A stretch of 64,000 nt of DNA, taken from NCBI GenBank assembly GCA_017622215.1, contig JAGARO010000010.1:62001-126000 (forward strand), read 5' to 3'. This DNA is from Clostridia bacterium (lineage in GTDB: Bacteria > Bacillota > Clostridia > Monoglobales > Monoglobaceae). Both the position numbers and the translations under genes were made by a program. How positions within the stretch are numbered: the first letter of the stretch is position 1; each line of letters opens with the position of its first letter. Below are positions 41,613 to 49,762 of this stretch, one piece after another. Under the pieces are notes generated by a model. That model searched no databases, was not told the origin of the DNA, and saw only the letters and a list, made by a program, of their open reading frames with translations.

Positions 41613-42209
41613 ATGAAATTTCTAACACAAAAGAACTTTGTAAAAAACAAAAAATTTTCTTATCTTGTGGGAGCTCTTATGATTTTGTTTATAGGTATCG
41701 GTGCAGTTTATGCCGGGCTTATGGAAGAGGCGAAATCAACAGAACTCCGCGAGTATGTAAGGAATTTTATGTCTGTATATTCCATTGAGGGAGTAGATAA
41801 ATCCCAGGTGTTTTTATCCTCTCTCTACGGAAATATAAAGATACTTTTAATGATATTTATCTCAGGGCTGAGCATATATCTTCTGCCCCTGGGAGGAATT
41901 TTTATTCTTGCCAAGTGCTTCAGGCTGGGATTTACTTCAGCCTTTATTTTCAGAGCCCTTGGAGTAAAAGGAATATTATATTTGTTCCTGTCAGTTTTCC
42001 CTGTGAATATTATATTTTTGCCTTTGCTGGCAGTATATTATTCTTTTTGTATGGAAAATGCAGGAAAAACATCACTTTTGAGAAACGACACGAAATTTCG
42101 GATGAAAATTGTTGTCGCTTTTTTTGTTGCCTGTTTAGTGGGCACAGTATGCAGTTTCCTTGATGGATATGTAATTCCGTATTTTTTAAAAACAATGATA
42201 ATGATATAG
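41613..42209 (+). CDS. spoIIM: Stage II sporulation protein M (SpoIIM)
   Basis: The protein has 198 aa with about five transmembrane segments (YLVGALMILFIGIGAVYAG; ILLMIFISGLSIYLLPLGGIFILA; FIFRALGVKGILYLFLSVFPVNIIFLPLLAVYY; VVAFFVACLVGTVCSFLDGYVIPYF). SpoIIM with SpoIID and SpoIIP drives engulfment of the forespore. Its place before xerD matches other Clostridia. Suggests a spore-forming ancestry. No SigE promoter was convincingly identified. Confidence 0.9.
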   Translation: MKFLTQKNFVKNKKFSYLVGALMILFIGIGAVYAGLMEEAKSTELREYVRNFMSVYSIEGVDKSQVFLSSLYGNIKILLMIFISGLSIYLLPLGGIFILAKCFRLGFTSAFIFRALGVKGILYLFLSVFPVNIIFLPLLAVYYSFCMENAGKTSLLRNDTKFRMKIVVAFFVACLVGTVCSFLDGYVIPYFLKTMIMI

Positions 42210-42223
42210 AAAGGAGGGCGGAT

Positions 42224-43111
42224 ATGGAGAAAACAGTAGTAAAATACCTTAAATTTTTATCAGAGGAAAAAAGGTCATCTGCCAATACTTTAAGTTCATA
42301 CAGAAGAGACTTGTTAAGATTTGGAGAGTATTTGAAAGAGCATAAGCTTAACTACCTTTCAATCCATAATACAGACATTCTTACATATATGAGCAGAATG
42401 CAGGAAGACGGAATGTCCCCTGCTACAGTTTCCCGTAATCTCGCCTCAATCCGTTCTTTTTATATCTATCTTATGAGAAAGAAGAAGGTGTCGGAGGACC
42501 CAACCTTCAATATCCGTTCTCTCAAAAAGGAAAAGACCTTGCCTACAACCTTAACAGGTCCCGAGGTGGAGGTTTTACTTTCGATGCCAAAAACAGACGA
42601 GCCAAAGGGCTGTCGTGATAAGGCAATGCTTGAGGTGATTTACGCCACAGGCTTAAGAGTTTCAGAGCTGATTTCTCTTGATTTGGATGATATCAACCTT
42701 AAAATCGGCTATATAAACTGTGCAGGCAACGGCACAGCAAGAGTTGTGCCGATATACGCGGAAGCAATAAAAGCGGTTAAGGATTATCTCGAAAAATCAA
42801 GAAATATTTTGTGCTTTGACGAAAGCGTAAAGGCACTTTTTGTAAACATTAACGGAAAGAGAATGTCAAGACAGGGCTTCTGGAAAATTCTCAAGAAATA
42901 TAAGGAGGAGGCAGGAATTCCCAAGGAAATTACGCCTCATACTTTAAGACATTCTTTCGCGCTCCATCTTCTCGAAAACGGAGCAGATTTAAAGTCCATT
43001 CAGGAGCTTTTAGGCCACTCTGATATATCTTCCACACAGATTTATTCAGAGATAGCGAGTAAAAGATTGAAAGATGTATATAATAAGGCTCATCCGAGAG
43101 CCGGAAAATAG
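42224..43111 (+). CDS. xerD: Site-specific tyrosine recombinase XerD
   Basis: The protein has 295 aa. The N-terminal core-binding domain (YLKFLSEEKRSSANTLSSYRRDL) is followed by the catalytic domain with the Arg in IYATGLRVSELISLDLDDI, HTLRHSFALHLLENG (HxxR), LLGHSDISSTQIYSE (second His; Tyr nucleophile in IYSE). It resolves chromosome dimers at dif. XerD versus XerC-type cannot be fully separated by eye; only one copy lies in the window. Its stop codon is 3 bp before the inverted-repeat element. Confidence 0.93.
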   Translation: MEKTVVKYLKFLSEEKRSSANTLSSYRRDLLRFGEYLKEHKLNYLSIHNTDILTYMSRMQEDGMSPATVSRNLASIRSFYIYLMRKKKVSEDPTFNIRSLKKEKTLPTTLTGPEVEVLLSMPKTDEPKGCRDKAMLEVIYATGLRVSELISLDLDDINLKIGYINCAGNGTARVVPIYAEAIKAVKDYLEKSRNILCFDESVKALFVNINGKRMSRQGFWKILKKYKEEAGIPKEITPHTLRHSFALHLLENGADLKSIQELLGHSDISSTQIYSEIASKRLKDVYNKAHPRAGK

Positions 43112-43113
43112 AG

Positions 43114-43379
43114 AAAAACAGTCCAAAATGGGCGTCTTCTCACGGGGATAAGCCAACTTGAAACTTTGCATTTCGGCGTCGTACTGCGAAAAAAGCCTCG
43201 TCAATCCACAAAGGATTAACTGCGTTTTTTGTCTTGTCCGCCATCCAAAATGCTGTGTTTCAAGCAATGTTTGGATAAATAATATAACCCCTTGCAATAC
43301 TTAGTATTGCAAGGGGTTTTTTATCTTCAAATCCAAATTGACTTCCCCCTGTGAGAAGACGCCCGGTCGGACTGTTTTT
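43114..43379. repeat. 266-bp inverted-repeat (MITE-like) element
   Basis: The outer ends are imperfect inverted repeats of about 34 bp: AAAAACAGTCC, 4-5 variable bases, then GGGCGTCTTCTCAC and a G-run, at 43114-43147 and reversed at 43346-43379. Inside are a ~108-bp palindrome (43157-43264, CTTGAAAC...GTTTCAAG, centre AATCCACAAAGGATT) and a perfect 15-bp hairpin (43286-43318). No credible ORF is carried. No clear target-site duplication was found. It sits between xerD and the OLE promoter. Confidence 0.7.
43286..43323 (+). terminator. Strong hairpin with T-tract inside the repeat element
   Basis: AACCCCTTGCAATAC and GTATTGCAAGGGGTT pair perfectly (15 bp) across TTA, followed by TTTTAT. It would terminate transcripts from spoIIM-xerD before OLE. 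A second helix TTTGGAT/ATCCAAA may enclose it. Confidence 0.8.
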
Positions 43380-43382
43380 TAT

Positions 43383-43411
43383 TTGACAATATTAAGAAAA
43401 TAGGGTATAAT
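43383..43411 (+). promoter_or_regulatory. Consensus SigA promoter for the OLE RNA operon
   Basis: TTGACA (43383-43388), 17-nt spacer, TATAAT (43406-43411): a perfect match in both boxes and spacing, beginning 4 bp after the repeat element ends. Predicted transcription start is near 43418, at the 5' arm of the OLE terminal stem. Confidence 0.93.
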
Positions 43412-43417
43412 GTTATG

Positions 43418-44033
43418 CTAAGGGTAACAGTATTCTAGTCGAGCTTTTTTGTTCCCAGGGCGGGCCTAAAAATCCGCCGAAGGGCATATCGATGAAGTTT
43501 CTGGTGCGTGCTGCCAACGCCCAGTTGGGGGTATGTGCTGGGAGTTAAGGACTTTGGGCGATCCGCAATGGCATGCGGGCGTTGACCCATTTTCCGTGGA
43601 GACCTATGACCGTGTTTTGCAGTGCATTATGGGGTACGTCCCTTTAGTCCTGCATTATACGTATTAGGATGAAACCTGTCATGCGGTGCAACGAAAGTTG
43701 TGTTGTGGACAGCGTAGCCTGACTTGAGTGAATATGGAGGAGGACTGACAGATTTTCCTTTGCCGGCCAGCGAAGGGAAATTATAGCTTTACAAAACCAT
43801 ATTTGCAAAAGAGTCTAAGAACAAAATCAGTTCGTCGAGGAAAACTCCTAGACTGGTCGAAAGAGCCACGCATAGGATTAAGGTGCGTACTGAGTGGCAA
43901 TTCGGTAAAACGAGTGGCAACACCGTTTGCTGGTGCGTAATCGGAAACGGCCTTGCTGGCGACAGCTTGGTGCACCATCGGGAAATCCAACCGAACCTAT
44001 GACGCAAGATTTACTATGCGTGCTACCCTTAAG
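43418..44033 (+). ncRNA. ole: OLE RNA (Ornate Large Extremophilic RNA)
   Basis: About 615 nt without a credible ORF, starting right after a perfect promoter. The ends pair (TAAGGGTA near 43419-43426 with TACCCTTA at 44024-44031). Internal hairpins include GGCGGG/TCCGCC near 43460-43480, TTTCCTTTGC/GCGAAGGGAAA at 43754-43780, AGTCTA/TAGACT near 43812-43855 and GCCAC/GTGGC near 43866-43900. The length, the following OapA-like gene and the dxs-tlyA-nadK-recN neighbourhood are exactly those described for OLE RNA in Firmicutes. OLE forms a membrane-associated ribonucleoprotein with OapA and helps cells cope with stresses such as cold, alcohol and excess Mg2+; the role in this organism is inferred. 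Confidence 0.9.
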
Positions 44034-44057
44034 AGGAATTTTAAAAGAGGTTTTATT

Positions 44058-44606
44058 TTGAAGAATAAACAAACCCAGGAAAAAAAGAATAACTTCTGGA
44101 TACTTAAGACATTTATACTGACCTTTTCTCTTGCAATGGTTTTTGCTGTTGTCTCAGGTGAGGTCTTAGAAAAAGTAAATAATTTTGTTGCAGTTTTAAT
44201 ACTTCTTCTCATTATTTTGGTGGGTATTATCTTTGATATGCTTGGAGTTGCTGTAACAGCGGCAGAGGAAGCCCCGTTTAACGCAATGGCTACAAGGCAT
44301 ATAAAGGGTGCTAAAAGAGCGTTGAAGCTTATAAAGTCAAGGGATAAGGTATCCAATTTCTGTAACGACGTTATAGGTGATATCTGCGGAATTATAAGTG
44401 GTTCAGCCTCAGCCGCAGTAATCGCCCATATGGCTGTAAATATGGGAAACACAAAAGAATTTGTTTTCGACCTTGTGGTAACAGCGCTGGTTGCGGGACT
44501 TACAGTGGGCGGAAAGGCAATGGGAAAGAGCTTTGCCATAAAAAATTCAAAGGATATTGTATTCACAGCGGCAAAGGTGCTTTCAGTTTTTACTAAAGAA
44601 AAATAG
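44058..44606 (+). CDS. oapA: OLE-associated membrane protein OapA
   Basis: The protein has about 182 aa with four hydrophobic segments (about 14-34, 42-60, 112-128, 134-152) and a basic N-terminus. The conserved cytoplasmic stretch EEAPFNAMATRHIKGAKRALKLIKSRDKVSNFCNDVIGDICGIISG contains Asp at about 96, 104 and 108; conserved aspartates in OapA are reported to be critical. The TTG at 44058 lies seven bases after AAGAGG; the longer frame from 43953 runs through the 3' part of the OLE RNA and is rejected. OapA binds OLE and brings it to the membrane. dxs follows after 9 nt. Confidence 0.9.
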   Translation: MKNKQTQEKKNNFWILKTFILTFSLAMVFAVVSGEVLEKVNNFVAVLILLLIILVGIIFDMLGVAVTAAEEAPFNAMATRHIKGAKRALKLIKSRDKVSNFCNDVIGDICGIISGSASAAVIAHMAVNMGNTKEFVFDLVVTALVAGLTVGGKAMGKSFAIKNSKDIVFTAAKVLSVFTKEK

Positions 44607-46451: not shown

Positions 46452-47249
46452 ATGGCAAAAGTCAGACTTGACGTTTTCCTGACAGAAAACGGCTATGCGA
46501 AAAGCAGAACAAACGCCCAGTCCTTAATTATGGAGGGTAAGGTTTTCATAAATAACCAGAAAGCCATGAAGGCAGGGGATATGATAAATGGAACTGAAAA
46601 CATAGAGGTAAGGGGTAAAACTCTTGAATATGTAAGCCGTGGCGGTCTCAAGCTTGAAAAAGCAATAAAAAACTTTGACCTGACTCCTGAAAATAAGGTT
46701 TGTATGGATATAGGAGCCTCCACAGGCGGTTTCACAGACTGTATGCTTAAAAACGGTGCAGTAAAAGTTTATTCAGTTGACGTAGGCTACGGACAGCTTG
46801 CCTGGAGTTTAAGAAACGACCAGCGAGTTGTGAATATGGAGAGAACAAATATCCGTAATGTTACAAGAGATGATATAGAAGATGACCTTGACTTTTTCTC
46901 AGTTGATGTATCTTTCATTTCCTTAAAGCTGGTGCTTCCTGTTGCATATTCACTCCTTAAAGAAAAGGGCGAGGGAATATGTTTAATCAAGCCACAGTTT
47001 GAGGCAGGCAGAGAAAAGGTTGGAAAGAAAGGCGTAGTAAGGGATGTTGAGGTACATAAAGAGGTTATAAGAAATACCTTTGCCTTTACAGAAGAAATCG
47101 GCTTTACAATCTTAAATCTTGATTATTCCCCGATAAAAGGTCCCGAGGGTAATATTGAATATTTAATGCACATAAAGAAAACAGACGCCCCATCGGCAGA
47201 AATTGATATAGACAAGGTAGTAGAAGACTCACATAAATTAAATCTCTAA
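46452..47249 (+). CDS. tlyA: TlyA family rRNA (cytidine-2'-O)-methyltransferase
   Basis: The protein has 265 aa. An N-terminal S4 domain (RLDVFLTENGYAKSRTNAQSLIMEGKVFINNQ) is followed by an FtsJ-like SAM methyltransferase fold (VCMDIGASTGGFTDCMLKNGA, VYSVDVGYGQLAW, LIKPQFEAGREKVGKKGVVRD). TlyA proteins 2'-O-methylate 16S/23S rRNA; some relatives are haemolysin-annotated. Standard position after dxs. nadK follows after 14 nt. Confidence 0.94.
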   Translation: MAKVRLDVFLTENGYAKSRTNAQSLIMEGKVFINNQKAMKAGDMINGTENIEVRGKTLEYVSRGGLKLEKAIKNFDLTPENKVCMDIGASTGGFTDCMLKNGAVKVYSVDVGYGQLAWSLRNDQRVVNMERTNIRNVTRDDIEDDLDFFSVDVSFISLKLVLPVAYSLLKEKGEGICLIKPQFEAGREKVGKKGVVRDVEVHKEVIRNTFAFTEEIGFTILNLDYSPIKGPEGNIEYLMHIKKTDAPSAEIDIDKVVEDSHKLNL

Positions 47250-47263
47250 AAGGAGATGATTCT

Positions 47264-48040
47264 ATGAAAATTGCAGTAATTCCAAATTTAACAAAGGACC
47301 CTGAGCTTATTTATTCAAATAAGGTTAAGGAGTATCTTGCTTCGGAGGAAGCAGAGATAATTGACTATGGCAAAAGCCTTGAGGGTTATGATGTTGCAGT
47401 AGTAATAGGCGGCGACGGCACAATCCTTGAGATTGCAGGAGAGGCTGCAAGAACAAACACACCGATTATAGGAATTAACTTTGGAAATTTAGGCTTTTTA
47501 TCACAGATTGAAAAGGCTGACATAGAGAAAATAAAGAGTATTTTAAGTGATTTTAAGACTAAAGATGTAATGATGCTTTCAGGGAAAATAAATGGAGAAG
47601 AGGAAGTAAATGCCCTTAACGATATGGTAATAAGGGGCGATATTTCAAGAATGGTTTCCCTTGAAATTTATATTGACGGACAAAAGGCAGGGGAGTACTC
47701 AGCTGACGGAGTGATTTTCTCCACTCCCACAGGCTCCACAGCCTATTCCTTGTCTGCAGGCGGGCCGATAATTCATCCGAAAATGGACGGAATTTTAATA
47801 ACACCAATCTGTCCGCATAGTTTAGATGCAAGGTCGATGGTAATCCCACCGGATTGCAGGGTAGAGGTAAAAATTGTTCCGCCCTACAGGACAAAGCCTG
47901 TGCTCACAGCAGACGGAAAAACTGTAAAAACCATTGAAAATGATGACACAGTTGAAATAACAAGGTCAACGTTACGACTTAAGCTGATTGAGATTGATGA
48001 CAATAACTTTTTTGAGGTACTTGGACGAAAGATAAAGTAG
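47264..48040 (+). CDS. nadK: NAD kinase
   Basis: The protein has 258 aa; makes NADP+ from NAD+. GGDGTILE near residue 49 is the active-site motif; NFGNLGFLS, NDMVIRGDISRM and SADGVIFSTPTGSTAYSLSAGGPI are other conserved blocks. AAAGGAGATG precedes the ATG. The argR gene usually found between nadK and recN is missing; recN starts 15 nt on. Confidence 0.96.
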   Translation: MKIAVIPNLTKDPELIYSNKVKEYLASEEAEIIDYGKSLEGYDVAVVIGGDGTILEIAGEAARTNTPIIGINFGNLGFLSQIEKADIEKIKSILSDFKTKDVMMLSGKINGEEEVNALNDMVIRGDISRMVSLEIYIDGQKAGEYSADGVIFSTPTGSTAYSLSAGGPIIHPKMDGILITPICPHSLDARSMVIPPDCRVEVKIVPPYRTKPVLTADGKTVKTIENDDTVEITRSTLRLKLIEIDDNNFFEVLGRKIK

Positions 48041-48055: not shown

Positions 48056-49762
48056 ATGCTCAGAGAATTGCATATTAAAAATATAGCAGTAATAGACGAA
48101 GCAAGAATTGAGTTTGAAAAGGGCTTTAATTCTCTTACAGGCGAAACAGGTGCAGGTAAGTCTATTTTGATTGACTCTATAAATATGCTTCTGGGTAATA
48201 AAACACCTAAAGATTTAATCCGTACAGGAGAAGAAAAAGCAGTTGTAAACGGAATATTCGACATAAACGAAAAATTAGCAGAAAAAATAACTGACGAACT
48301 TGGGATTGATGTTGAAGATAACGAACTTTATGTTTCAAGACAGATAAATACAGAGGGAAAGAATGTGTGCCGAGTAAACGGAATGACTTGCCCTGTGGCA
48401 CAGCTTAAAGAGATAGGCACATATTTAATTGATATCCACGGCCAGAGCGATAATCAGGCGCTCCTTAATCCAAAATTCCATATAGATTATTTAGACAGCT
48501 TCGCAGGAAACAGCGATGTTTTAGAGGAATACTTAAAGGAATATAAAGAAGTTAAAAGAATAAGGAAAGAAATTGAAGAAATAAATAAGACAAGAGAAGA
48601 GGCAGAATACCGCCTTGAAATTCTTGAATTTCAGATAAATGAAATTGAAAGTGCAAGACTGGTTTTAGGGGAAGACGAAGAGCTTGAGGAGAGAAGAAAC
48701 TTCTTAAGGAACGCAGAAAAGATTATGTCAGGTGCAGAGTCAGCCCACGAATATCTTTACAGCGGAAACGGAACTCAGCTATCTTCCTTTGACCTTTTGA
48801 TGAAAGGCGAGAAACAGCTTTCCGAGGTTAAAGAATACGATAAGGAACTTGCAGAATTGTATGAGAGAATGACCTCTGTAAGAGTTGAACTTGAGGATAT
48901 AACAGCCACTTTAAGCGACTATATAAGCAAGAGTAACTATGAAGCAGGGGAGCTTGATGTAATCGAAGAACGCCTTGACACTATAAACAATCTTAAGAGA
49001 AAGTATGGCGGAACAGTTGAAAATGTCCTTGAAAAGCTTGAGGAGCTGAAAAAAGAAAATACAAATATAACAGAGGGCGAAGAGATTTTAGCAGAGCTTG
49101 AAAAAGAGCTACAGCGTCATAAAACTGTTATGGTAAAAATGGGACAGCTTTTGTCCGAGAGAAGACGAAAGGCGTCAGCTGACCTTGAAAAGAAAATAAT
49201 GACAGAGCTTTCCGAACTTGATATGCCGAAAATTCGTTTTTCTGTTATGGTAACACCTGACGAAGATGAAGAGGGCGTAAGATATAGTTCTACAGGGGGA
49301 GATGTAATTGAATTTTTAATTTCCACAAACCCTGGGGAGAGCTTAAAGCCTATGAATAAGATTGCATCAGGGGGCGAGCTTTCCCGAATTATGCTCGCAA
49401 TGAAATCGGTTTTTGCTGATAAGGATGCAGTTGACACATTGATTTTTGACGAAATTGATACAGGTGTGTCAGGCAGAGCAGCGGAAAGAATAGCGGAAAA
49501 AATCTGTAAACTTTCAATGGAGAAACAGGTTCTCTGTGTAACCCATCTTCCACAGATTGCAGCTATGGCTGATACAAACTTCTTAATTGAAAAGGATACT
49601 GACGGAGAGAGAACAAGGACAAGTGTAATTAAGCTTGATGTTGAGGGTAAAACCGAAGAACTTGCAAGAATTATGGGTGGCGTTACTGTAACAGAGCTTA
49701 CAAAACAGAGTGCCTTTGAAATGCTGAAAATGGCAGAGGAATATAAGAAGGGTATAAGATGA
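48056..49762 (+). CDS. recN: DNA repair protein RecN
   Basis: The protein has 568 aa; an SMC-like ATPase in double-strand break repair. Walker A GETGAGKSILIDSINMLLG near residue 30, ABC signature ASGGELSRIMLAMKSVFA and Walker B LIFDEIDTGVSGRAAERI are clear; two coiled-coil arms span about residues 160-360. The ATG at 48056 follows AAGAGGGTG-like sequence. The end overlaps the rseC-like gene by 4 nt. Confidence 0.96.
   Translation: MLRELHIKNIAVIDEARIEFEKGFNSLTGETGAGKSILIDSINMLLGNKTPKDLIRTGEEKAVVNGIFDINEKLAEKITDELGIDVEDNELYVSRQINTEGKNVCRVNGMTCPVAQLKEIGTYLIDIHGQSDNQALLNPKFHIDYLDSFAGNSDVLEEYLKEYKEVKRIRKEIEEINKTREEAEYRLEILEFQINEIESARLVLGEDEELEERRNFLRNAEKIMSGAESAHEYLYSGNGTQLSSFDLLMKGEKQLSEVKEYDKELAELYERMTSVRVELEDITATLSDYISKSNYEAGELDVIEERLDTINNLKRKYGGTVENVLEKLEELKKENTNITEGEEILAELEKELQRHKTVMVKMGQLLSERRRKASADLEKKIMTELSELDMPKIRFSVMVTPDEDEEGVRYSSTGGDVIEFLISTNPGESLKPMNKIASGGELSRIMLAMKSVFADKDAVDTLIFDEIDTGVSGRAAERIAEKICKLSMEKQVLCVTHLPQIAAMADTNFLIEKDTDGERTRTSVIKLDVEGKTEELARIMGGVTVTELTKQSAFEMLKMAEEYKKGIR

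Follow-up and report, generated by a model that had tools for sequence, protein, structure and literature searches.

OLE is a known bacterial RNA of large size that acts at the cell membrane and is still poorly understood; to our knowledge, it ranks among the largest structured RNAs in bacteria for which no biochemical function is known. By 2024, 2,822 OLE hits had been listed in Bacillota, and small gut genomes (TANB77, RF39) had been described with shortened OLE variants and loss of OapB and OapC (PMC11332333). The locus described here lies in another small genome (1,176,513 bases in 14 contigs, 93.6% complete), within a stretch of 64,000 nucleotides that was analysed as a whole and is called the window below. 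An earlier reading of the letters alone (the sequence-only reading) had taken this locus to be OLE RNA with its partner OapA in a Clostridia operon. Is it really OLE? Is the RNA complete, and are its partners still encoded? What does its presence tell us about the host family?

The first question is answered by an Rfam scan of the window, in which two matches reached the gathering score, one to the ribosomal protein L21 leader and the other to OLE. The L21 leader (RF00559, 33509-33584, 46.7 bits) is an ordinary cis-regulatory RNA. The OLE match (RF01071) spans 43406-44045 on the + strand with 473.6 bits (E 7e-136; gathering score 50 bits) and covers model positions 1-616 of 616, without truncation. 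In the Rfam alignment no deletion exceeds three model positions, the features of the full-length class (P7-P9 and the P13 region) are present, and the one 22-nt insertion relative to the consensus belongs to a hairpin at about 43600-43670, the P7 region being longer, not shorter. Alignment with 16 other OLEs shows that the highly conserved positions are intact. The fold of the 615-nt RNA beats those of 20/20 dinucleotide shuffles (z -4.7), and in the minimum-energy fold TAAGGGTA at 43419 pairs with TACCCTTA at 44024-44031, which bears out the hairpins and the pairing of the RNA ends that had been described earlier. The host genome has one OLE copy, a new copy of a known class and not a new kind of RNA.

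The sequence-only reading had also noticed a perfect promoter, beginning the locus precisely at its -35 box. TTGACA at 43383 and TATAAT at 43406-43411 are indeed separated by a 17-nt spacer, and this 12/12 match is unique in the window when both strands are scanned. From its position, transcription is expected to start near 43418, and therefore 12 nt at the start of the Rfam match would belong to the -10 region, outside the RNA. No + strand reading frame of at least 50 aa lies within ole, except for the oapA frame, if that is extended upstream to TTG 43953; the non-coding character claimed earlier holds, and the length of about 615 nt is refined to about 614 nt. Of the family's nine distinct full-length OLE copies, seven have a perfect TTGACA-N17-TATAAT 70-77 nt 5′ of a conserved motif, GGGCNNNTCGATGAAG, and many Clostridium copies have 10-11 of the 12 promoter matches at equal distance from it. 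Judged by sequence, the ole promoter is conserved in the host family, and a strong promoter of this kind is suggestive, but no more, of an abundant and stable transcript of about 600 nt. The RNA and its elements are located as follows.

43383-43411, + strand: consensus sigma-A promoter of ole, TTGACA-N17-TATAAT, 12/12 consensus matches
43418-44031, + strand: OLE RNA (ole), full-length class, about 614 nt; probable start set by the promoter, probable end by the closing stem
43420-43426, + strand: P1 closing stem, 5′ strand AAGGGUA, paired with 44024-44030 in the fold
43468-43472, + strand: AAAAA in the loop of the GGGCCUAAAAAUCC hairpin, matching bridge B1 of the dimer (L4, A-A pairs)
43480-43499, + strand: AAGGGCAUAUCGAUGAAGUU, J4a/5 region, OapC-binding k-turn by published role, sequence near-invariant
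43548-43595, + strand: P6 hairpin, region reported to bind bS21, GGG/CCC core pairs retained
43765-43768, + strand: GGCC palindrome of the L9.3 loop, matching dimer bridge B3, a self-complementary kissing loop
44024-44030, + strand: P1 closing stem, 3′ strand UACCCUU, paired with 43420-43426 in the fold

The closing stem varies among lineages. Other Clostridia have GGUGGU/ACCACC, GGUGGC/GCCACC or AAUGGUG/CACCAUU, with both strands altered and pairing preserved, a covariation read by eye, without a statistical count, for a stem that is absent from Rfam's paired columns. The P1 strands were taken from the alignment; a plain complement search gave chance matches in some sequences. Other elements hardly vary. 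The AAAAA loop is invariant in 17/17 aligned OLEs, and the GGGCCUAAAAAUCC loop would correspond to L4, whose role in bridge B1 was seen in the cryo-EM dimer of C. acetobutylicum OLE (PMC12286853). The GGCC of L9.3, described as the kissing loop of bridge B3 (PMC12286853), is found in the window OLE and in nearly all aligned relatives. J4a/5, which forms the OapC-binding k-turn (PMC9723947, PMC12286853), is nearly invariant across the 17 aligned OLEs.

The surroundings of ole are those expected from the earlier reading, which had given the downstream order as dxs-tlyA-nadK-recN: family models match all four genes, and the order ole-oapA-dxs-tlyA-nadK is common to nine other genomes of the family.

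41613-42209, + strand: spoIIM, upstream neighbour (Pfam SpoIIM, 42.9 bits)
42224-43111, + strand: xerD, upstream neighbour (NCBIfam XerD equivalog, 350.2 bits, cut-off 329.6)
43112-43378, + strand: structured repeat, about 240 nt (43126-43366 by profile), separating xerD from the ole promoter
44058-44606, + strand: oapA, OLE-associated protein A, 182 aa, TTG start, four predicted transmembrane helices
44616-46451, + strand: dxs (NCBIfam dxs, E 4e-221)
46452-47249, + strand: tlyA (TlyA family, E 4e-77)
47264-48040, + strand: nadK (NAD(+) kinase models, E 2e-64)
48056-49762, + strand: recN (NCBIfam recN, E 2e-163)

The gene immediately 3′ of ole, whose start codon is preceded by AGAGG, had been described as encoding a four-helix membrane protein of about 180 aa; four long helices are predicted, and the size becomes 182 aa. 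This protein aligns along its length with 31 relatives from other Clostridia, ranging from Clostridium to Caloramator, most of which sit downstream of an ole motif. The alignment has 22 columns that are invariant in 32/32 sequences, including D104xxxD108, and the window protein retains all the invariant residues. D104 and D108 presumably correspond to D100 and D104 of H. halodurans OapA, a protein outside the alignment, in which both residues are altered in mutant PM1 (PMC9723947). Pfam CNNM matches at threshold (28.6 bits against a cut-off of 28.4), and the Pfam search found no CBS, CorC or other domain besides it. With the AlphaFold2 model (mean pLDDT 80.9; helices 2-39, 42-68, 95-126 and 131-162), the top five Foldseek matches are all CNNM/CorC transmembrane domains (top matches 7m1t, 7m1u and 7cff; E 0.005 to 1, probability 0.94-1.00). 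The CNNM-like four-helix transmembrane fold predicted in this way is in line with the relationship of OapA to MpfA described in the literature (PMC11332333). The alignment, the Pfam match and the Foldseek matches confirm the identity proposed for this protein. The sequence-only reading had named two grounds for giving up its interpretation, the lack of a significant match to the OLE covariance model and the failure of the downstream protein to match OapA; both searches were run, both gave matches, and the interpretation is supported.

The repeat upstream of the promoter is undescribed. It has eight copies in the host genome, seven near full length and one without its middle (the others are at G000:C1:109320, C1:211982, C1:275172, C10:106873, C9:21447, C3:57716 and C7:135941), and it is inserted at the same site in the sister species. 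Its consensus fold has 82 pairs with 97.4% of cells paired, and 21 pairs are changed on both sides, compared with 8.2 in shuffles (0/500 as high) and at most 4 with slid partners; the outer arms differ between copies while their complementarity is preserved. No Rfam family matches it at gathering score, and the weak matches, far below gathering scores and mostly on a terminator-like hairpin, were treated as chance. The repeat is a mobile element that takes up its fold in single-stranded form, or else it is a family of RNAs. Its inner terminator-like site (43286-43318), made up of a 15-bp hairpin and a T run behind it, could, as a guess, shield ole from xerD transcription.

Are the other partners of OLE encoded? 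A search for oapB and oapC, which the sequence-only reading had recommended, found both in the host genome, away from ole. OapB (KOW), 94 aa, is encoded between map and infA (G000:C3:61495-61776); in the PDB it matches OLE-associated protein B best (7k9b, E 1e-10). OapC (YbxF/L7Ae-like) is a 79-aa ORF directly upstream of rpsL-rpsG-fusA-tuf (G000:C5:29764-30000), with YbxF as its best PDB matches (E 9e-9). Spo0A is also present in the genome.

The situation of bS21 is different. It is reported from one form of the H. halodurans complex and to be needed there for cold and ethanol stress, not for Mg2+ or starvation (PMC12054373). bS21 (PF01165) was found in 35/36 other genomes of the family but not in either genome of the host genus (G000 and G016), which are drafts of 93.6% and 81% completeness; incompleteness alone would be expected to remove it from both in about 1% of cases. 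In relatives, rpsU belongs to a cluster that reads from sequence as rpsU-yqeY-yqeG-nfo, and in one of them (G026) the rpsU-yqeY region is about 17 kb downstream of ole. An rpsU-yqeY region near ole in the host was considered and rejected, as it is absent from the window and from the next 18 kb, and none of rpsU, yqeY, yqeG and nfo was found in the approximately 130 kb of host genome examined. In the RNA itself, the region reported to bind bS21 is the P6 hairpin (PMC12054373); near relatives have a GGGG/CCCC block there, and its outermost G-C pair is replaced by U-A in the window OLE. Decay of this site was rejected as support for bS21 loss: other lineages also have A-U or U-A at this pair, and therefore U-A here is no evidence for it. 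Since bS21 was not found in the host genus, the OLE complex of the host may be simpler, and a host free of bS21, if true, would fit an auxiliary role of this protein.

Could the RNA then be a decaying or partner-poor OLE, like those of the reduced TANB77 and RF39, kept by chance in a shrinking genome? The size of the host genome (1.18 Mb at 93.6% completeness) and the failure to find bS21 speak for such a history, but it is very improbable given that all model parts are present, with a longer P7 region and intact conserved positions, that OapA keeps all its invariant residues, and that OapB and OapC are encoded. Moreover, the sister species has the same RNA (459.3 bits) and an OapA that is 97% identical. 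Less probable still is that these 615 nt serve as a long regulatory 5′ leader of the oapA-dxs operon, without being an RNA in their own right. In favour of a leader, no intrinsic terminator precedes oapA, and the region and the gene would be expected to share a transcript; against it, the region matches OLE in full length, the stem that pairs its ends closes the RNA ahead of oapA, and OLE of H. halodurans is produced by processing, as an RNA of about 630 nt and very high abundance (PMC9723947). In addition, dxs holds its place without such a leader in an OLE-negative relative (G029). That the locus is a canonical full-length OLE locus is, in our judgment, nearly certain.

How would a canonical OLE locus work in this host? 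An outline can be drawn by analogy with H. halodurans and C. acetobutylicum. The strong sigma-A promoter would drive synthesis of a structured RNA of about 614 nt. No intrinsic terminator was found in the window between the OLE RNA and oapA, and therefore transcription probably continues into oapA; OLE may then be processed out of the joint transcript, as H. halodurans suggests. Most likely, the RNA adopts the bundle of parallel helices known for OLE and would dimerise via the A-rich loop and the GGCC kissing loop, with the J4a/5 k-turn presumably binding OapC and P12.2/P13 binding OapB. OapA would hold OLE at the membrane. Judging from H. halodurans genetics, its likely job is stress adaptation, including Mg2+ homeostasis. 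In the host family, the OLE machine may fill a niche otherwise held by MpfA, a CNNM-CBS-CorC Mg2+ transporter.

This last point can be approached by comparing 38 genomes of the family, many of them drafts and some less than 80% complete. OLE is present in 10 of the 38, namely both genomes of the host genus (g1) and 8/9 of another genus (g7). In the host genome the sole match of a CNNM search is OapA, and therefore MpfA was not found there. Full CNNM proteins (MpfA) occur in 27/28 OLE-negative genomes and 0/10 OLE-positive ones (Fisher p 2e-8, before phylogenetic correction). OLE-OapA and MpfA are mutually exclusive among the 38 genomes, with the caveat that the exclusion represents only two independent switches and draft genomes. 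The number of switches comes from a DXS tree that takes in OLE-bearing Clostridia from outside the family, with the caveats that dxs is a neighbour of ole and that the root is a midpoint. The OLE/MpfA label requires two changes on it, one on the branch to genera g3, g4, g5, g6 and g9 and the other at G029, whose position within g7 is well but less than fully supported. The dxs locus of G029 (L091) has kept dxs-tlyA-nadK, with argH upstream and ole-oapA absent. Its MpfA, a CNNM-CBS-CorC protein of 439 aa (L115:3945-5264), shares 76% identity with the G032 protein and 33-41% with six more (those of the remaining five family members checked and one other), which suggests that G029 acquired it. 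The G029 MpfA gene adjoins genes that read as a V-type ATPase operon. In G026, two OLE copies (L060, L066) were considered as paralogues and rejected, because their contigs (C1 and C20, with near-identical OLE-oapA-dxs) are 99.9% identical over 4.5 kb, and therefore they probably reflect strain or assembly duplication.

An anticorrelation of OLE and MpfA across Bacillota was reported by Fernando and Breaker in 2024 (PMC11332333). Exclusion within one family refines it, and the published idea that either system takes the other's place in Mg2+ homeostasis can be examined cleanly by comparing close relatives that carry OLE-OapA or MpfA. Tentatively, and with slightly more doubt than belief, we propose that the OLE complex of the host genus consists of OapA, OapB and OapC without bS21, and that OLE-OapA and MpfA are interchangeable in this family for the same need, having been swapped at least twice, once within one genus (G029).

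How does the window locus compare with known systems? One further full-length OLE copy changes little by itself. Like those of H. halodurans and C. acetobutylicum, it matches the whole model, has its own promoter and oapA directly downstream, conserves the k-turn and dimer-loop sequences, and is accompanied in its genome by the three core protein partners. It differs from them in the 22-nt insertion, in the closing stem AAGGGUA/UACCCUU, and in its host, an animal-gut Clostridia lineage with a genome of about 1.2 Mb and a genus in which bS21 was not found. With OLE variants 1 and 2 of TANB77 and RF39 it shares the small genome of an uncultured gut bacterium, but those variants have a short or missing P7-P9 and hosts largely without OapB and OapC (PMC11332333), all of which are present here. 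A genome of about 1.2 Mb thus keeps a full-length OLE and three core partners, and therefore genome reduction alone fails to explain the trimmed variants. As for MpfA/CorC/CorB, OapA shares with these proteins a predicted CNNM-like transmembrane fold, and MpfA occurs in OLE-negative relatives; they are CNNM-CBS-CorC Mg2+ transporters, whereas OapA has neither a CBS nor a CorC domain and works with an RNA.
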